Positions 18,826 through 41,246 of a stretch of 41,246 nucleotides of DNA are shown one piece after another. Source of the DNA: Bacteroidota bacterium (GTDB lineage: Bacteria; Bacteroidota; Bacteroidia; Chitinophagales; UBA10324); NCBI GenBank assembly GCA_014190575.1, contig BJGQ01000027.1:1-41246 (forward strand), given 5' to 3'. Within the stretch, counting starts at the first letter, position 1; the number at the start of each line of letters is the position of its first letter. The notes under the pieces are model-generated. The model made no database searches, was not told where the DNA came from, and saw nothing but the letters and a program-made list of their open reading frames with translations. The position numbers and the translations under genes are program-made.

Positions 18826-20031
18826 TTATTCCTCGCCACCCTCATTTAACGAAGCATCTGGTGAGCCGTCGTTCAATATATTTTTTATTTCGTTGAGCGC
18901 ATACACCGAGTGGTTGAATTTATTTCCGAGCACAATAATCACATACTGCTCCTGCGGGTTGGTGTAGAAGACGGTGTTGTAACCCTTCCACCAGCCATTG
19001 TGAAAAATATATTTTTTACCGGGCGCATATTCATACATGCGAAAACCTAATCCATAATTTTTATTTCCTGCATGCTCAAAACTCTGCGGAGTGAATGCCA
19101 ACTCGAGCGATTCTTTCTTGAGGAAGCAATCGGAGGTGAGCATTTTGTACCACTGTAACAGGTCGTGCGTGGTGCTGTACACACCTTTGTCGCCGAGTAT
19201 TCCATCAAATGCATCTGTTGCAATTGAACTCCAGTTGTAATTGTAGCCGCAGGTTTTATGCTCGCATAATTTTTTATCTTCTGTAGTAATGAAGTAAGTA
19301 TTGTTCATGCCCACAGGATTTAAAATATACTGCTGCATGTATTCATCGAATTTCATTCCCGTTACTTTTTCGGTAATAGCAGCAAGCACGGCGTAGTTGG
19401 TGTTACAGTAGGTAAATTTTCTTCCCGGTTTAAACTGTAATGGTGGTGATTGATTTTCTATCCAGCGCATTAAATCCTGATTGTTTATTTTTTTAAAACC
19501 GAGCGCGGCGCTGTCTTCATATGCAAAACGATAATCGGGCAAACCGCTGCGATGACTCAGCAACATTTTTAATGTGATGCCATGAATAGGAAACTTCGGA
19601 TAGTATTCCTGAATGGAATCTTCCAACGCAAGCTTTCCGATTTCAATGAGGTGTAACACCGCAACTGCGGTAAAGGTTTTTGAAATGGAAGCCAGTTGAA
19701 ATTTAGAATCGTCGGTGAGTTTTATTTTTTTTCCGTAATCCTCAAAGCCAAAATTGTTGTCGTAAAGAATTACTCCGCGTTGTGCAATTAAAACATTGCC
19801 GTTAAATCCTAATCGCTTTGCGCGGTAATTGAAAAGCGAATCGAGCAGGTGATGTTTTTTGTCGGCGCGAATTTCTTTGCGGATATTTTGCTCATCAGTT
19901 TTTGAGAGCATGAATTTCTGAATGCACTCCACGCATAAATTGTTTGGTGCTTCATCTTTTGAAAAAAGATTTTTGCAGGAATTGCTTCCCAGCAACATAA
20001 TTACCAACAATAAAGCGAGTTGTTTCTTCAA
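18826..20031 (-). CDS. Serine hydrolase, beta-lactamase class C/PBP-like lipoprotein
   Basis: 401 residues. The N-terminus (LLLVIMLLGSNSC) looks like a lipoprotein signal with Cys19 as the lipidated residue. The catalytic triad motifs of the class C/esterase EstB/DD-peptidase fold are present: SxxK at Ser115-Lys118 (ASISKTF), Tyr208-Cys-Asn210 (YCN) and HNG in FHNGWWKGYN. It is probably a periplasmic or surface-anchored peptidase or esterase rather than an antibiotic-resistance enzyme; sequence alone does not separate these. Its start follows the cyclophilin stop by one base, so the two are cotranscribed. Confidence 0.9.
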   Translation of the reverse strand: MKKQLALLLVIMLLGSNSCKNLFSKDEAPNNLCVECIQKFMLSKTDEQNIRKEIRADKKHHLLDSLFNYRAKRLGFNGNVLIAQRGVILYDNNFGFEDYGKKIKLTDDSKFQLASISKTFTAVAVLHLIEIGKLALEDSIQEYYPKFPIHGITLKMLLSHRSGLPDYRFAYEDSAALGFKKINNQDLMRWIENQSPPLQFKPGRKFTYCNTNYAVLAAITEKVTGMKFDEYMQQYILNPVGMNNTYFITTEDKKLCEHKTCGYNYNWSSIATDAFDGILGDKGVYSTTHDLLQWYKMLTSDCFLKKESLELAFTPQSFEHAGNKNYGLGFRMYEYAPGKKYIFHNGWWKGYNTVFYTNPQEQYVIIVLGNKFNHSVYALNEIKNILNDGSPDASLNEGGEE

Positions 20032-33417: not shown

Positions 33418-34446
33418 CTAATTGGTTTTCAAAAGCAATTCCTTCGGATAAGAAAAATCAGTATTGAACAGAAAACTTCTATCAGTAAGTGTTAGAAGAA
33501 ATGCAATGATGTCAACTTTCTCATTTGAAGAAAGTAAAATAGGGACCTCCAGTTTTTTTGAAAGTGTTTTGCTTTTTTGTATTCCGGAAATGTAATGATT
33601 CAATACATCTGTTAATTTTTTGAATCGACCATCATGCATGTACGGATAAGAAAATTCAATATTGCGGAGTGATGGCACTTTGAAATTTAATGAATCGTTT
33701 GGATCAAGCGTTATTTTCATTCGCCCAATATCATTGAGTGTTGCATCAATTGTTAGTCCGTTATTTTCAAATTGCTGATTAGTGAAAAGTGGTTCTTGAT
33801 GGCAGCCCGAACAGGTTAATTTGAAAAGCGTGTAACCGTTTTTTTCCTGTTCGGTAAATGTTGCTTTCTTTCGCATCACGCTATCGTATTTTGAATTGCT
33901 GCTGATGAGTGTGAGCATAAATTGTGAAATAGCTTTTAAGGTATGTTCACCGGTAATTATGCTATCACCAAATGCTTTTAAGAATAATGTCGGATAAAGT
34001 TTAGTTCGTTGCAGTTTTTTTACAACACTATCTATGTTACTTGCCATTTCTTTTTCATTGGCAATCGGAGCAAGCGGTTGCATATCCAAATGGTTAATTG
34101 CGCCATCCCACATAAAAGATTTTTGCCAGGCCAGGTTCATCAAGGCGGGAGCATTTCTGTTACCTATTAAATTATTTATGCCATGACTTAATGCATGATC
34201 AACATGAGCGAAAGCAGTAAATTGAGAATGACAACTGTTACACGAAATGGTATTGTCTTTTGATAGAACGGGGTCATAAAAGAGTGCCCTTCCCAATTCA
34301 ACTTTATCATGAGTCAACGGATTTTTTGAAAAATCATATTCCGGCTTAGGCCAGTCTTTTGGAACATAAAAAAGTTTTTCTTTTAATATCGTGAAACCTG
34401 ATATCGTAAAACAAATTCCGATTAAAAGCAATAATGATTTTTTCAT
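33418..34446 (-). CDS. Di-heme cytochrome c peroxidase family, MbnH-like
   Basis: 342 residues. N-terminal signal/anchor (LLLLIGICFTISGFTILKEKLF). Two heme-c sites: CNSCH at 69-73 and CSGCH at 212-216. The context HSQFTAFAHVDHALSHGI and RNAPALMNLAW is typical of MauG/CcpA-type di-heme enzymes. Its start overlaps the stop of an MbnP-family gene by four bases (ATGA), the arrangement seen for MbnP-MbnH pairs. In methanotrophs MbnH oxidises a tryptophan of MbnP to kynurenine; plain H2O2 peroxidase is the alternative. Periplasmic. Confidence 0.9.
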   Translation of the reverse strand: MKKSLLLLIGICFTISGFTILKEKLFYVPKDWPKPEYDFSKNPLTHDKVELGRALFYDPVLSKDNTISCNSCHSQFTAFAHVDHALSHGINNLIGNRNAPALMNLAWQKSFMWDGAINHLDMQPLAPIANEKEMASNIDSVVKKLQRTKLYPTLFLKAFGDSIITGEHTLKAISQFMLTLISSNSKYDSVMRKKATFTEQEKNGYTLFKLTCSGCHQEPLFTNQQFENNGLTIDATLNDIGRMKITLDPNDSLNFKVPSLRNIEFSYPYMHDGRFKKLTDVLNHYISGIQKSKTLSKKLEVPILLSSNEKVDIIAFLLTLTDRSFLFNTDFSYPKELLLKTN

Positions 34447-35162
34447 TTTTTTCTATTGCTGAAAACCGATGCGATTTGATTTGAAAATAAAACGGCTTCT
34501 TTCGACGGAGCAACAATGTTGTTCTCATTTACCAAATCATTTAATTCAATAAGTTTTCTCAGGTCAATATCAACATAAATATTTTTTTGCGGTTCAGCCA
34601 ATAAATTAATTGTTTGTATTGAACTGAAAGGAAATTGGTAACCACCAATATGAAACTGAAACTCATTGTTGCGAGTCATGCATAGACTGCATTTACCTTC
34701 CAGTTTAAAATTGATGTATCCGTTTTGCCAAGTCCAGTACATTCCTTTTGTCGGGTCAAGATCACCACCCATTGCACCTGATACATTGGTAATGCTGTCA
34801 ATTCCTAAATTGAATTTTATTTCGGTATAAGAAATATTGAGTGGCGGTTGTATCAAAATGCTTAATAGGTTTTCATTCGCATCAATTAAATGAAAGCTCT
34901 TTTGTTCTTCCCACATAACCTTCCCGTCATTAAGCAATTGTATTCCGGATATATAAAACCGTAATAAATCAAATTGAATACTATCGTTAATTCCTATTTG
35001 ATAAAATGCAGGTTGATTAAAATCAATTACTGAATTTTTAAATAACGGATAAAATGAAACTGATATTTCATTGCTTTTTTGCGCCTGAGTATTTGAATAA
35101 ATTGAATTTAAAAAAAGCAGGAAGACAACAATTCTGATTTTCATCTTTAAAAATTTTGTCAT
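34443..35162 (-). CDS. MbnP-family copper-binding protein
   Basis: 239 residues. Signal peptide (IRIVVFLLFLNSIYSNTQAQ). The MbnP signature is visible: GIDSITNVSGAMGGDLDPTKG followed by MYWTWQNGYINFKLEGKC, with Trp143 and Trp145. A CSLC pair follows (158-161). The family is a secreted beta-sandwich that binds copper after an adjacent MbnH oxidises one tryptophan. The start may instead be the second ATG at 35144. A weak -7 box (TAAAATTG on the minus strand) at 35189-35196 could serve the MbnP-MbnH pair separately. Confidence 0.87.
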   Translation of the reverse strand: MTKFLKMKIRIVVFLLFLNSIYSNTQAQKSNEISVSFYPLFKNSVIDFNQPAFYQIGINDSIQFDLLRFYISGIQLLNDGKVMWEEQKSFHLIDANENLLSILIQPPLNISYTEIKFNLGIDSITNVSGAMGGDLDPTKGMYWTWQNGYINFKLEGKCSLCMTRNNEFQFHIGGYQFPFSSIQTINLLAEPQKNIYVDIDLRKLIELNDLVNENNIVAPSKEAVLFSNQIASVFSNRKK

Positions 35163-35275: not shown

Positions 35276-36652
35276 CTACTTTACAATAGTAACTTTCTCG
35301 CGAATGGAATTTGCTCCGTTTAAAATATGAATTACATATTCTCCGCTGTAAAGTTTTTTAGTGTCGAAATAAATTATGGTGCTGCCTGGATTAATGATTT
35401 TTTTATCAATCAGTTTTCCGGTGATATCAAATAACGAAATGTTAATGGGTTCAGTAGTTAAACCATTTGCCTGAATGGCTATAAAATCATTCGCAGGAAT
35501 CGGGAATATTTTAATGTCATTTTCATTCAGAATATTTTCATTAACACCTGAGGCGGTAGAAGTATATACTGTTACAACTTCTGTAATTGAAGTAACCTTA
35601 GCCGCAGTTTTTACACCATAAAAAGTCGGACCAACAACATATGGATAAGCTGAATTCCAGTTTGCATCTACAGTAGCGAAGTAGCAATAGATTTCTTGCG
35701 GATATTCTGGTGTTACACAAAACCGACCATTGTGTTCATCTAAATAATCAGGATTGGAAGGATGACTTACAAACTCATAATCCTCTCTGAAATATCCTAA
35801 AGGATAAGTTGTGCTTACAGTAGGTCCATCAGGAACATTAGTACCATCAGCCCAATGTGTGCGTGTTGTAATATTTCTTAACTGATAGCCCGATTTCATT
35901 CTGGTAATTCCACCGGTTCCGTTAGTATTTAAATGAGCATAAGCGCCATAAATAGGAAAACCATCGTAAGCAAAACCAATCAATGGTGAATGCTGTGTGC
36001 TGTCTATTGCATATAATCCATCGGCTGCATATAAATTGCAAATGGTAGATATAACATTCAGGTCCAAATCAAACGCAGAAGGATTTTGATGATGGTGATA
36101 GTTTCCCATTGCAGGATGGCCTTTCGAACAATCGAAGCCTGGTTTCTCAGCAGGTATTGCATCACGCATCCAATATTGTGTTGCGCCCATTCCGCCCGGA
36201 CAAGGAGGATTTCCTGGACCACCGCATAAAGCATTTGAGGCGCTATCCCATGCTACTCCATCTCTGTAGTCAAACAAGGCAACTCCATTAATAAATAGAC
36301 CAATGTTGCCTCCAGTAGTCGCTGTTGAAGTCCCGATATTTTGCACAGGGTTTAGTGGAATTTTAAAAATTGCATTTTGTGTTGTTGCCAATGACGGATT
36401 TCCATCAAGGAAAGGACCAGTTGGATAAGCAGGTATTCCGTTTGCCCTCACATAAACCCAGCTTGTTGAGTACAAAACTGTTTTAACATTGGCGGAGTCA
36501 TTATCCTGAATGACGGTTGAATTTCCGCTCACATAATGTTGTCCTTTTATTCCTGTTGTGTTTTGAATCCATGAACTGATGGCAGGATTTGTTTGAGCAA
36601 ATACCAGTTGAGTACTTGCAATGATTAGCAGTGTGATGAATTGTTTTTTCAT
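35276..36652 (-). CDS. T9SS-secreted YHYH-domain protein
   Basis: 458 residues. Signal peptide (FITLLIIASTQLVFAQ), then a YHYH domain: GNYHHHQNPSAFDLDLN, FAYDGFPIYGAYAH, LGYFREDYEFV and LDEHNGRFCVTPEYP... YPYVVGPTFYG. The tetrapeptide is YHHH here rather than YHYH. A T9SS sorting domain ends it (IFPIPANDF... LFDITGK... LYSGEYVIHIL). The His-rich domain is presumed to bind metal; no enzyme activity is established. Spaced 7 bases after the arylsulfotransferase-like gene, so cotranscribed. Confidence 0.88.
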   Translation of the reverse strand: MKKQFITLLIIASTQLVFAQTNPAISSWIQNTTGIKGQHYVSGNSTVIQDNDSANVKTVLYSTSWVYVRANGIPAYPTGPFLDGNPSLATTQNAIFKIPLNPVQNIGTSTATTGGNIGLFINGVALFDYRDGVAWDSASNALCGGPGNPPCPGGMGATQYWMRDAIPAEKPGFDCSKGHPAMGNYHHHQNPSAFDLDLNVISTICNLYAADGLYAIDSTQHSPLIGFAYDGFPIYGAYAHLNTNGTGGITRMKSGYQLRNITTRTHWADGTNVPDGPTVSTTYPLGYFREDYEFVSHPSNPDYLDEHNGRFCVTPEYPQEIYCYFATVDANWNSAYPYVVGPTFYGVKTAAKVTSITEVVTVYTSTASGVNENILNENDIKIFPIPANDFIAIQANGLTTEPINISLFDITGKLIDKKIINPGSTIIYFDTKKLYSGEYVIHILNGANSIREKVTIVK

Positions 36653-36659
36653 TGGGGAA

Positions 36660-38297
36660 TTATTGTTGGTGAATTAATTTGATGATTGAAATTTTTGATG
36701 CTGATTTTATTTTGAGGAAATAAATTCCTTTGGGTAAAAGTGAAAAATCATTTGATGCTATTTCACTACCCGAAAAAATTATTTGCCCCACAGAATTACT
36801 TAGCTGGTAATTTTCTTTTTCAGTTTTGGATACGACATTAATGGTTGATGAAAAAGGATTGGGAAATACTTCATCATTATCAGTTGATAAAATTGCAGGA
36901 ACATCAGTTTCAGGAAGCATGGTACAACTGTACGCCAATGGATTCAATTCAATTGGATTGCCAGGAGTTAAGGTCAATCCGTTGAATCCCGGATAGGTTG
37001 TTTCGTAAAGTGTGCATCTGAAAACTGAATTATTAGTAGGAGTTGTTCCTTGTGAAATTATTGAACCTGCTTGTCCGACAGGGCTTACATATTTCCACAC
37101 AATATTTTCAGCGGTATCAATTTCAAAAAAATTTCCTTTCGGACCTTCACAAATTAATGTATGCCCATTTGTTAATCGTTGAGCCCCTGAAATATTCATT
37201 GCATAAAAACTGGTTGGAGTTGTTGCCTGATATGACCAATAAGCTGAAGAAGGTAAGTAGGATTGACCTACGCTTAATGAATAATCTCCATTACCATTAA
37301 CAGGAGGCGCAATAATATCGATAGTAGAAAAATTTCCTGCGGGCCGACCAATACCATTATTGAATATCATAATGTTTCCTGCATCATTCAATCCACTCTC
37401 AATCCACTGAGGGTTGTGTTGGCCGAACAGTTTTTGATCTGTTGCAAGACCTCTGCCGTATGCTTCCGGATTTCCCCATCGATATAAAAAATCACCTCCC
37501 TTGTTGTGGGTGCCACCTGTGTGAGATACAGCTTGTGAAGTAGTGGTGCTATGATCAATGATGTAAAATTCATTTTGATTGTGTGCACTCAAAATAATCT
37601 GATCCAATGCAGCATTGTAATCAAGACCGTTACAGTGAAGCCAATCAGCTTGAGTGCCGAGATTGTAATTAAGATTTATTAATTCCGGATGATCAGCAAC
37701 CACACCATAGTTTGGTTTTGTCTGATCGAAATCCTGAATCAAATGATCCCATGCACGCCATTCCCAAACCACATTTCCTCCGGATGCACCTACAGGTTGT
37801 AATTCAACAATTTTATCACTCCATACCACTGTTCCAATATTTGCAGGATTAGCACCAGCGGCAATTGCTTCGGCAGCAGTTTTTAAATCATACGAAATGG
37901 CTAATACATTTCCGTTTGGTAAAATTCTTATATCGTGATGCTGACATTCTGTAGAATTTGAAATGGTGTAGGTCCATGTAATATTTCCGGCCCAATCAAA
38001 TCTTTCTATAATACCGCCTAAACCACCTGCATTGAATGTTGCATTATTAAGTTTCCCGGTTCTCAATAAAGATCCATCTTCCAGAAAATAACACGATTGA
38101 CCCGGTTGATGAGTGCTGGTCCATGAATGATCCTGGTAGCCACATTTATCAATGAGATAAGTAGTATTTCCAAAATTCGGGGCGAACAAAACATATCCAA
38201 TCTGTGAGCTGGAGATTTGTGGGAATAACCCAACTGTTTGTGCATTTGAAAATTGAATTGCAATAAGAAGAAATAAAATTGAAATTAATTTTTTCAT
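36660..38297 (-). CDS. T9SS-secreted arylsulfotransferase-like propeller
   Basis: 545 residues from the ATG at 38297 (MKKLISILFLLIAIQFSNAQ). The frame is open 17 codons further, but that would overlap the upstream gene and lacks a signal peptide at its start. The propeller carries the histidine sites expected of bacterial ASSTs: CQHHDIRILPNGN, DWLHCNGLDYN and LFGQHNPQWI. A T9SS sorting domain closes it (VFPNPFSSTI... SNSVGQIIFSG... LPKGIYFLKI). ASSTs move sulfate between phenols without PAPS; whether this one does is untested, and a scaffold or metal role is also possible. Confidence 0.85.
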   Translation of the reverse strand: MKKLISILFLLIAIQFSNAQTVGLFPQISSSQIGYVLFAPNFGNTTYLIDKCGYQDHSWTSTHQPGQSCYFLEDGSLLRTGKLNNATFNAGGLGGIIERFDWAGNITWTYTISNSTECQHHDIRILPNGNVLAISYDLKTAAEAIAAGANPANIGTVVWSDKIVELQPVGASGGNVVWEWRAWDHLIQDFDQTKPNYGVVADHPELINLNYNLGTQADWLHCNGLDYNAALDQIILSAHNQNEFYIIDHSTTTSQAVSHTGGTHNKGGDFLYRWGNPEAYGRGLATDQKLFGQHNPQWIESGLNDAGNIMIFNNGIGRPAGNFSTIDIIAPPVNGNGDYSLSVGQSYLPSSAYWSYQATTPTSFYAMNISGAQRLTNGHTLICEGPKGNFFEIDTAENIVWKYVSPVGQAGSIISQGTTPTNNSVFRCTLYETTYPGFNGLTLTPGNPIELNPLAYSCTMLPETDVPAILSTDNDEVFPNPFSSTINVVSKTEKENYQLSNSVGQIIFSGSEIASNDFSLLPKGIYFLKIKSASKISIIKLIHQQ

Positions 38298-38319
38298 TGA
38301 ATTAGAATGTGAAAGGAAT

Positions 38320-38922
38320 TTATTTTCGGAAATGAATTTGACAGCCAATTGATTTTGTTTCAGGAATAGAAACTTTTTTACTTTTTAATAATTCATCAAC
38401 CGCGTCAGAAACATAATGATGTTGCACTTTATCCGGTTCTGCACCATTATCATCAATTGCTCCGCTGTATTTAATGGTCCAATTGTTTTTTTCTTTCCAT
38501 AGAATAAATGCGTGTGGAGTTTTTTGCGCGCCGAAATTTTTTGCAGCCAATTGCTCTCCATCACATAGATAAGGAAAATTGAAATTTTCATTCTTGGCCT
38601 TTTCAATCATCTTTAAAAAGGAATCTTCGGCGTATGTAATGGTATCACTTGAACATATTGCAATTAGCGGTACGCCAAGGTTTTTATATTTTGAATTTAA
38701 CCCGTTCAATCTTTCAGGATACAATTTTGCAAACGGACAATGATTGCAGGTAAAAACAATTATGAAACCTTTAGCGCTCGGATAATCTTTTAACGAAACA
38801 AAATTTCCACCTACATTTTTTAAATGAAAATCATAACTTGATTTATTGCCTTTGATACTGAATCCCAGGGACAAAACGCAAATGGCAACAAGGAGTGAAA
38901 AATCGAAAATATTTTTAATCAT
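38320..38922 (-). CDS. Peroxiredoxin-like (redoxin) exported protein
   Basis: 200 residues. N-terminal signal (FSLLVAICVLSLGFSI) followed by a redoxin fold of the PRX-like1 group: FTCNHCPFAKLYPERLNGL is the active-site region (Cys-Asn-His-Cys-Pro), with FGAQKTPHAFIL giving the cis-Pro loop. A probable periplasmic thiol-based reductase or metal-chaperone-type protein. Its start overlaps the TlpA-like gene's stop (ATGA). Confidence 0.88.
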   Translation of the reverse strand: MIKNIFDFSLLVAICVLSLGFSIKGNKSSYDFHLKNVGGNFVSLKDYPSAKGFIIVFTCNHCPFAKLYPERLNGLNSKYKNLGVPLIAICSSDTITYAEDSFLKMIEKAKNENFNFPYLCDGEQLAAKNFGAQKTPHAFILWKEKNNWTIKYSGAIDDNGAEPDKVQHHYVSDAVDELLKSKKVSIPETKSIGCQIHFRK

Positions 38923-39398
38923 TTAACCAGTTTGTTTAATGTTTGAAGCGACATTGATTCGGAAAAAAATTTTTTATATTTTTTTTCATTGTTAAGAATC
39001 AGAGTTGCGGGTATTGAACCACTCCATTTTTTGTCAACCATGTTTATCCATTTATCAGCATTAGTCTCATCCAGTAAAAAGACAGGTACATTGATTTTAA
39101 ATTTTTCAATTAGTTGCGGCAATGTCTTTATGGAATCTTTTTTCATATCCAAACTCACAAAAATCATTTTAACCTTTTCATTCTTGTGCTGATCTGAGAA
39201 GGAAACAAAATCAGGCAACTCATTCAGGCAAGGCAAACACCATGATGCAAAAAAGTGGATGAAGTATGTTGTGTCACTTTTATTTGAATATATTTTTTGC
39301 AACGAATTAAAATTTATTACTTGAGCATTTTGTGCATGAATTTTTTCAAAAGATGAAATAATGAGTATAAAAAAAAGACAAGTCAAATTTCTATTCAA
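38919..39398 (-). CDS. TlpA-like exported thioredoxin
   Basis: 159 residues from the TTG at 39398, which overlaps the stop region of the multicopper oxidase (ttgaatag); a TTG at 39416 is an alternative. Signal (LFFILIISSFEKIHAQ), then a TlpA/ResA fold with FFASWCLPCLNELPDFV and cis-Pro in GSIPATLIL. TlpA-type proteins reduce cysteines in cytochrome or copper-site assembly, which fits its neighbours. Translational coupling to the oxidase is implied by the overlap. Confidence 0.85.
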   Translation of the reverse strand: MNRNLTCLFFILIISSFEKIHAQNAQVINFNSLQKIYSNKSDTTYFIHFFASWCLPCLNELPDFVSFSDQHKNEKVKMIFVSLDMKKDSIKTLPQLIEKFKINVPVFLLDETNADKWINMVDKKWSGSIPATLILNNEKKYKKFFSESMSLQTLNKLVK

Positions 39399-41118
39399 CA
39401 ACAAATTTTTTAACAATTGTTTGTTTTGATTTTTCGTCAGTCAGTTGTAAAAAATAATTTCCCGAAATCAAATGACTGATATCAATTCCATTTTGAATTT
39501 TTGGCTGAGGAAGCATGTAAATTGTTCTTCCAATCGCATCGCAGATTTTTATGTAATAAACTTTTGTGGTTGGGTCATTTAATGCAATGAATAATTTATT
39601 AGTTGCCGGATTTGGAAATAAGGTAAAATCAAAAGAACCTGAAGAAAGATTATTCTCTGATGTCGAGGAAAAATCTTTAACAACAAATTGTCCCATCATT
39701 CCTTCATCTTCATGCAATGAAATGTGGCAATGAAACATAAAGGGATGAAGGCTGTCAGAATAATCTTCAAACTTCGCTATGAATTTCACAACTGAAGGAG
39801 TGTTTCCTGTTTTGCCCGGAATAAAAACAACATCTTTCCATCCTGCTTGCGCTGCAGCAGGAGCCGCACCGTTGACAGAAATAATATTGAATTCAACATC
39901 ATGAATATGAAACGGATGCCCGAATACAGATGAGCTTGTTATTTGCCATATCTCAGTATTATTTAACGGCACTTCATATTCAATTTGATTAAGGTCAAAT
40001 AATTTATGATTAAGTATAAATGCATTTGGCCCAAGAATCGGGGGATTGGTGACACCGGTACTATCACTAATCGTAAGTAGCCGGGTAATATTTGCGTCAG
40101 CAACATTTAATAAAACATTTGTATTTAGTGTTGTTGGTATTGTAGTGATAGGAGCCCCTGTTTGTGCTGTAATATTTAAATGAAGTATATTAAAATCTGC
40201 ATGTCCAAGTGCATTTGCGAATGGTCCGTTCGGAAAATTTTCACCGCCCGCAATAAATCCGCTCAGTGAAGAATTATATGCTTTCAAATCAACAGAAGTT
40301 CCGGACTGACCGTTACAGTCTACCAGAATTTCAATTCTCTCCCCGGCATGTAATAAATATCTGTTCACTGAAACAGGCGCATCAAGTAAACCACCATCAG
40401 AACATATAACAGAGAAATTTCTGTTATCGCTGAAACCAATATTGTATGAGCGTTCAATGGCTGCATCTAAAATCCGAAAGCGAATAATTTGCGCCGGTAC
40501 CGAATATTGCGGACGAAGAGTTCCATTTACAATCATACTGTCACCATATGGAACGATGGTAAATTGATTAGATGTATTGATATCGCGATCTGTTAAAACC
40601 AAGGGAATATCATCAACACCATATGTTCGTGGCAAAGCCAATGCTGATTCAATATCATCCCTGACAATGATTAAACCACCTAAACCTTTTGTGATTTGTT
40701 CTTCAGTCATCATATGCAGATGAGGGTGATACCAGTATGTTGCTGCATTATTAGTTACTTTCCAATATGGTTGCCAAACAGTTCCCGGTGGAATTACCTG
40801 GTGAGGTCCGCCATCCATTACTGCGGGCAAGTGCATTCCATGCCAATGAACAGTAGTTGAATCATTCAGATAACTATGAATGTTCATGTGAACAGTATCT
40901 CCTTTATGAAATATTAAAGTTGGTCCCCAGAAATTTCCATTTACTCCTGCAGTAATAGTTTGCTGACCGGTTAAAAGCTGTTTGAATGTATCCCTTAAAG
41001 CCAGATTGAAAGTTGTTCCTGATAATGTATCAGGTATCCAAAGGGTATTGAAAGATTGAGCAAAAGAATAATTTATTAGAGTTGAGGTTAGAATGATGAA
41101 TAAATAAATTTTTTTCAT
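39391..41118 (-). CDS. T9SS-secreted multicopper oxidase
   Basis: 575 residues. Signal peptide (LFIILTSTLINYSFAQ). Three cupredoxin domains with the full copper-ligand set: HWHG (91-94), HPHLH (131-135), HPFHIH (401-406) and HCHISLHEDEGM (463-474), giving T1 ligands His401, Cys464, His469 and Met474. A T9SS sorting domain follows (LFPNPATNK... ICDAIGRT... LISGNYFLQL). It should couple oxidation of a substrate (phenolic, metal or Cu(I)) to O2 reduction at the cell surface. It is the promoter-proximal gene of the block; see the regulatory site at 41165-41229. Confidence 0.95.
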   Translation of the reverse strand: MKKIYLFIILTSTLINYSFAQSFNTLWIPDTLSGTTFNLALRDTFKQLLTGQQTITAGVNGNFWGPTLIFHKGDTVHMNIHSYLNDSTTVHWHGMHLPAVMDGGPHQVIPPGTVWQPYWKVTNNAATYWYHPHLHMMTEEQITKGLGGLIIVRDDIESALALPRTYGVDDIPLVLTDRDINTSNQFTIVPYGDSMIVNGTLRPQYSVPAQIIRFRILDAAIERSYNIGFSDNRNFSVICSDGGLLDAPVSVNRYLLHAGERIEILVDCNGQSGTSVDLKAYNSSLSGFIAGGENFPNGPFANALGHADFNILHLNITAQTGAPITTIPTTLNTNVLLNVADANITRLLTISDSTGVTNPPILGPNAFILNHKLFDLNQIEYEVPLNNTEIWQITSSSVFGHPFHIHDVEFNIISVNGAAPAAAQAGWKDVVFIPGKTGNTPSVVKFIAKFEDYSDSLHPFMFHCHISLHEDEGMMGQFVVKDFSSTSENNLSSGSFDFTLFPNPATNKLFIALNDPTTKVYYIKICDAIGRTIYMLPQPKIQNGIDISHLISGNYFLQLTDEKSKQTIVKKFVVE

Positions 41119-41229: not shown

Positions 41230-41246
41230 TAGAGTAGGTAAAACGA

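Follow-up and report, generated by a model that had tools for sequence, protein, structure and literature searches.

A diverged MbnP–MbnH gene pair in a Bacteroidota genome, with a predicted kynurenine–copper site and a recurring YHYH-domain neighbour

Introduction

Two overlapping genes on a contig of a Bacteroidota bacterium raise the question whether they encode MbnP and its di-heme partner MbnH, the pair known to make a kynurenine copper site, which of two closely spaced tryptophans would then be modified, and what such a pair would do in a genome of this kind. We analyzed the contig (BJGQ01000027.1, assembly GCA_014190575.1) over its whole stretch of 41,246 nucleotides, referred to here as the window.

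That the pair exists outside a methanobactin context is already known. PMC3621798 (2013) describes the MbnP–MbnH pair as conserved far beyond methanobactin producers and outside methanobactin operons, designates TIGR04052/TIGR04039 pairs as GenProp0940, and finds the MbnP sequence not markedly similar to MopE or CorA. PMC9426467 names MbnPH-like genes among the members of other putative copper operons, and PMC3912023 presents the MopE/SACCP and CorA/CorB systems of methanotrophs, which likewise combine a kynurenine–copper protein with a co-transcribed di-heme protein. A sequence-only reading of this DNA had held that tryptophan-to-kynurenine maturation in this lineage would extend the chemistry; that the context does so by itself is not supported, since PMC3621798 had reported the wider spread and since, among 296 genomes sampled from the phylum Bacteroidota, 78 have a match to the MbnP family (PF20243). 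Less expected are the membership of the pair in a diverged branch that scores below the family cut-offs, and the recurrence of YHYH, ECF and sensor-like genes beside it.

Layout of the locus and pairing of the genes

The pair belongs to a run of genes on the minus strand:

33418–34446, minus strand: MbnH-like di-heme protein, 342 aa (CCP_MauG, PF03150, 179 bits against a Pfam cut-off of 25.6; TIGR04039, 214 bits)
34443–34446, minus strand: ATGA shared by the stop of MbnP and the start of MbnH, read from the sequence (TCAT on the plus strand)
34443–35162, minus strand: MbnP family protein, 239 aa (PF20243, 130 bits against a Pfam gathering cut-off of 27; model matches 7L6G)
35276–36652, minus strand: YHYH-domain protein with a T9SS sorting tail, a recurring neighbour (PF14240, 187 bits; PF18962)
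36660–38348, minus strand: arylsulfotransferase-like protein with a T9SS tail (PF05935, PF18962)
38320–38922, minus strand: thioredoxin-like protein 1 (AhpC-TSA)
38919–39416, minus strand: thioredoxin-like protein 2 (AhpC-TSA)
39391–41118, minus strand: multicopper oxidase with a T9SS tail (PF07732, PF07731)

Both open reading frames of the pair and their four-base overlap lie where the sequence-only reading had placed them. No gene of the run precedes the multicopper oxidase on the contig, which stops at 41246, only 128 bases past the oxidase start and before the run is complete. The CueO model of NCBIfam matches the oxidase with 373 bits, under its cut-off of 525. T9SS sorting tails are matched by Pfam in the oxidase, the arylsulfotransferase-like protein and the YHYH protein; no such tail was found on MbnP, which has a signal sequence and lacks a lipobox (both judged by eye). 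Elsewhere in the window, a beta-lactamase-family serine hydrolase (PF00144) is encoded at 18826–20031.

The genome (3.19 Mb, 91 contigs) holds a single PF20243 match and a single PF03150 match at E ≤ 0.001. Among 80 relatives that we collected with peptide patterns of MbnP, KGMYWTWQ being one of them, a di-heme gene lies downstream in 75/75 with at least 1 kb of sequence there, which places the pairing beyond chance; some of these relatives are close kin and they do not count as 80 independent cases. A second set, drawn by Pfam profile from the sampled genomes and not by motif, comprises 189 unique MbnPs, a part of the matches listed, limited in loci and stretches. Here, 180 MbnPs are paired (same-strand MbnH-type gene at most 1.5 kb away), seven are unpaired (no such gene, with at least 1.1 kb on each side) and two are not classifiable, so that 180 of the 187 classifiable proteins have an MbnH-type neighbour. 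Adjoining MbnP-family matches, three within 2.4 kb in each of two genomes (G399, G408) and two in a third (G370), suggest tandem duplication; the loci concerned are L265, L266 and L267.

A methanobactin operon was considered and dropped, as the MbnB family (PF05114) has no match in the genome (98% completeness), compared with matches in two of 14 control genomes. Families of TonB-dependent transporters were likewise absent among the 19 window ORFs put through Pfam.

Family and fold of MbnP

At the sequence level the kinship with characterised MbnP is distant. TIGR04052 (MbnP_like_WxW) matches the window protein with 31.6 bits and does not reach its cut-off of 140, and it is matched at E ≤ 0.001 by 44 of 44 aligned MbnPs. 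The only cysteines are Cys158 and Cys161; the four-Cys motif, a criterion for TIGR04052 that we took from the molecule name of 7L6G, is not present. A PDB search with the single sequence returned only an unrelated chain (E 0.13) and did not reach 7L6G, and a profile of 44 rows gave 7L6G as its top match at just E 0.081.

The MbnP identity, weak from sequence, is settled by the AlphaFold2 model (mean pLDDT 86). All six Foldseek matches at E ≤ 0.001 are chains of 7L6G, the MbnP of M. trichosporium, on which the model superposes with Z 17.9 and an rmsd of 2.9 over 205 aligned residues at 16% identity; the best entry after 7L6G has a Z of 5.0. The WxW stretch is the weakest part of the model, with blocks within residues 121–150 averaging pLDDT values of 57, 62 and 67 and residues 126–131 below 50, and the geometry of the copper site was therefore not read from it. 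The nearest named relative, 81% identical in MbnP, is a MAG labelled Chitinophagaceae. A plasmid search gave no match to the window MbnP.

The di-heme partner

The partner carries CxxCH motifs at residues 69–73 and 212–216, together with Trp113 and Tyr285, and aligns with MbnH 6E1C over residues 28–334. In NCBIfam the MbnH model TIGR04039 is its best match (214.1 bits), under the cut-off of 362.85, followed by the MauG model with 179 bits and a cut-off of 444; TIGR04039 is matched by 24 of 24 aligned MbnH partners. MauG and the bacterial cytochrome c peroxidases (bCCPs) belong to the same di-heme family, PF03150, but the expected substrate here is MbnP and not an amine dehydrogenase. Two features of the protein deserve separate mention:

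33592–33594, minus strand: Tyr285, corresponding to Tyr in MbnH 6E1C and to Met in the bCCPs 1IQC and 3O5C
34183–34197, minus strand: stretch with His88 (34183–34185) and His84 (34195–34197), which 6E1C and the bCCP references lack

In bCCPs, the methionine is the sixth ligand of the C-terminal heme, and in MbnH the tyrosine is the ligand; the C-terminal heme of the window enzyme is probably His/Tyr ligated. The alignment references were 6E1C and three bCCP stretches, of which that of 2C1U stops before the Tyr285 position. In the thinned alignment set (one in eight from the clade of the window enzyme; proteins below 280 aa and duplicates removed), tyrosine occupies this position in 83/84 MbnP-adjacent enzymes and in 18/26 others, and in a larger set in 158 of 166 MbnH partners. 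Because it also occurs in those 18 enzymes without an adjoining MbnP, it is not specific to MbnH. His84 and His88 are both present in 84 of the 166 partners, and 6E1C has Arg and Ile there; to assign them a role at the heme would be a guess.

Could the di-heme protein instead be a classical cytochrome c peroxidase that happens to lie next to an unrelated MbnP gene? Phmmer ranks the bCCPs 1IQC (140 bits) and 3O5C above MbnH 6E1C (125 bits), in line with this possibility. Phylogenetic grouping speaks against it: in a tree rooted on the bCCP references, with MauG left out, the window enzyme falls within a clade of 95 leaves (support 0.971) that also contains 6E1C, 83 of the 84 MbnP-adjacent enzymes and a further 10. 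All six Met-type enzymes in the sample lie outside these 10, one of which, L178, stands at a contig start and is counted here provisionally. The axial position is held by Tyr and not by Met, and the two pairing counts given above do not fit a chance neighbour. We regard a classical peroxidase as very improbable and dropped this reading on account of Tyr285 and the clade shared with 6E1C.

The MbnP–MbnH identity put forward by the sequence-only reading is borne out by the fold, the MbnH-type Tyr and the grouping with 6E1C; the contrary outcome that it had named, loss of the MbnH active-site residues and grouping with classical peroxidases, did not occur. A search of viral contigs gave no match to the di-heme protein.

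The predicted copper site

Of the two tryptophans in the WxW motif of M. trichosporium MbnP, the first is reportedly converted into kynurenine, with Cu(I) lying close to solvent and to one His and one Met. The motif of the window protein is MGGDLDPTKGMYWTWQNGY, with the two nearby tryptophans that the sequence-only reading had noticed at residues 143 and 145. A profile alignment pairs the following residues with the chain of 7L6G:

34740–34742, minus strand: Met141, predicted copper-site methionine (aligns with Met147)
34734–34736, minus strand: Trp143, first W of WxW and predicted kynurenine (aligns with Trp149)
34728–34730, minus strand: Trp145, second W of WxW (aligns with Trp151)
34650–34652, minus strand: His171, predicted copper ligand (aligns with His182)

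The copper-site role of the aligned Met, Trp and His is one we take over from M. trichosporium MbnP. Absence of the modified tryptophan from such an alignment had been named as a refuting outcome; the residue is present, Trp143 facing Trp149.

Conservation was read from the profile-drawn set, as the 80 pattern-found relatives cannot be used for this purpose: their patterns include KGMYWTWQ, which 79 of the 80 have. Trp143 is retained in 178/180 MbnH-paired versus 5/7 unpaired MbnPs (Fisher p 0.007, shared ancestry ignored). Among the 180 paired proteins His171 is kept in 177, Trp145 in 160 and Met141 in 149, and Trp145 is accordingly less constrained than Trp143. The first Trp is thus near-invariant beside MbnH and lost in two unpaired copies, where it is replaced by F or Q with Met and His retained, which lends evolutionary support to this tryptophan as the target. 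If a single tryptophan is modified, these sequences make Trp143 the more likely one over Trp145, which answers the question that the sequence-only reading had left to an alignment and agrees with the result reported for M. trichosporium. The MbnP at L245:1873–2622, which has no MbnH neighbour, has lost both tryptophans of WxW and retains Met and His.

With a probability of roughly 0.75, we propose that the window encodes an extracytoplasmic MbnP–MbnH pair in which MbnH makes Trp143 a kynurenine for a Cu(I) site, in the service of copper handling. MbnH would most likely draw electrons from Trp143 via its two c-hemes, yielding kynurenine, and the modified MbnP would bind a single Cu(I) close to the kynurenine and to residues His171 and Met141. 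Against this proposal we count the scores of both proteins below the NCBIfam cut-offs, the presence of two cysteines and the paired MbnPs L243 and L255, which lack Trp143 although their MbnH-type partners retain the hemes and the Tyr. On the same side stand the five unpaired MbnPs with Trp143, the distant profile match to 7L6G, the low model confidence around WxW, the phmmer order of 1IQC and 6E1C, the wider occurrence of Tyr285, and the sensor-type profile (run without a positive control) that matched nothing in this genome.

The same evidence bears on an alternative in which MbnH of a diverged branch oxidises MbnP to another product, such as hydroxytryptophan or a cross-link, or in which the site takes another metal. 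Such divergence would be consistent with the low scores, with His84 and His88 as residues foreign to 6E1C, with two cysteines in place of a four-Cys motif, and with a Met141 that is not strictly kept. Opposed to it are the near invariance of Trp143 and His171 in paired MbnPs and a fold and motif as in 7L6G, and we judge it unlikely.

Compared with the M. trichosporium OB3b proteins, the window pair is alike in the MbnP fold, the M-x-W-x-W motif and the His (7L6G), and in the gene pairing, the two CxxCH hemes and the Tyr at the axial position (6E1C). It is unlike them in the lack of the MbnB family in its genome, the low identity, the two cysteines and the additional His84/His88. In TIGR04052/TIGR04039 pairs both models match and the genes are paired, whereas here both matches remain below cut-off. 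The CorA site, according to PMC3912023, has two His, unlike that of the window MbnP. A kynurenine–copper reading would place in the Bacteroidota a diverged yet well-conserved branch of the pair, many members of which are known from metagenomes alone.

Neighbouring genes and the possible role of the pair

The proposed pair would handle extracytoplasmic copper jointly with exported products of the run, the multicopper oxidase and the YHYH protein. Its neighbours suggest an extracytoplasmic task in copper or metal handling, and the oxidase in the same run is counted in favour of a copper-handling pair. According to BLAST matches in the 80 relatives, the oxidase recurs in 15, the arylsulfotransferase-like protein in nine, thioredoxin-like protein 1 in eight and thioredoxin-like protein 2 in three.

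The YHYH gene is a more constant companion, by which the branch gains a recurring third gene. It lies within 7.5 kb of MbnP in 62/80 relatives, and in 32 of the 36 whose sequence extends 7.5 kb in each direction; among the 62, it is on the same strand as MbnH in 61 and directly downstream of MbnH in 43. In a sample not chosen by motif, YHYH matches of at least 150 bits occur in 22 genomes, with MbnP within 5 kb in eight including that of the window, and in the seven other genomes MbnP, MbnH and YHYH stand together. As the remaining 14 of the 22 have no MbnP nearby, the gene also occurs apart from it. The protein shows a conserved Tyr-His-x-His-Gln stretch, a nearly invariant His187 and further conserved His; its structure model was poor (mean pLDDT 39) and left unused. 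PMC7824862 calls YHYH enigmatic and predicts that it binds Zn.

A link between YHYH and MbnPH was not found in our literature search, whose reach excluded most subscription papers, the 2021 MbnP paper included. The abstract of that paper reportedly mentions a neighbourhood analysis, and the link may therefore be in print already.

Of the 80 relatives, 34 encode a small sensor-like protein whose N terminus carries a hydrophobic stretch; its gene stands immediately before MbnP in 33, and in 29 of these an ECF sigma factor gene lies within 600 bases before it (named by Pfam for L004 only and by BLAST clustering for the remainder). Among seven of the sensor-like proteins searched against Pfam, L041 and L011 score above the cut-off for Metal_resist or LTXXQ, three match Metal_resist below its cut-off, and L004 and L008 match neither. 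Twelve aligned proteins share His63, His115 and Cys123 (L008 numbering). Neither gene is seen beside the pair in the window, and a profile of the 12 sensor-type proteins, run without a positive control, had no match in the genome. At L004:357–1652, the ECF sigma factor and the sensor-like protein directly precede MbnP.

The copper might be taken up, stored, or handed on to the oxidase or the YHYH protein. The same chemistry may serve the detoxification of copper at the surface and not its supply, a reading that overlaps with the one we prefer and that we hold to be a real, if less than even, possibility. It fits the CueO-like oxidase in the run and, in relatives, the ECF sigma factor and the sensor-like protein (in some cases matching Metal_resist or LTXXQ) that are encoded ahead of MbnP. 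It fits less well with the low recurrence of the oxidase in relatives, and with CorA, which has a kynurenine at its copper site, is copper-repressible and was suggested by its authors to act in copper acquisition (PMC3912023).

More tentatively still, the kynurenine–copper pair might form a three-part copper module at the surface with YHYH, in which MbnP would load or exchange copper with YHYH, and with the secreted multicopper oxidase, and a metal-sensing ECF sigma system would act as the switch in relatives. YHYH would then be an unrecognised copper protein, and a widespread domain would gain a function if this is true. The window genome has a second YHYH gene, at L140:4233–5495; the ORFs listed for that stretch include neither MbnP nor MbnH, and the genes adjoining the YHYH gene resemble parA and parB by eye.
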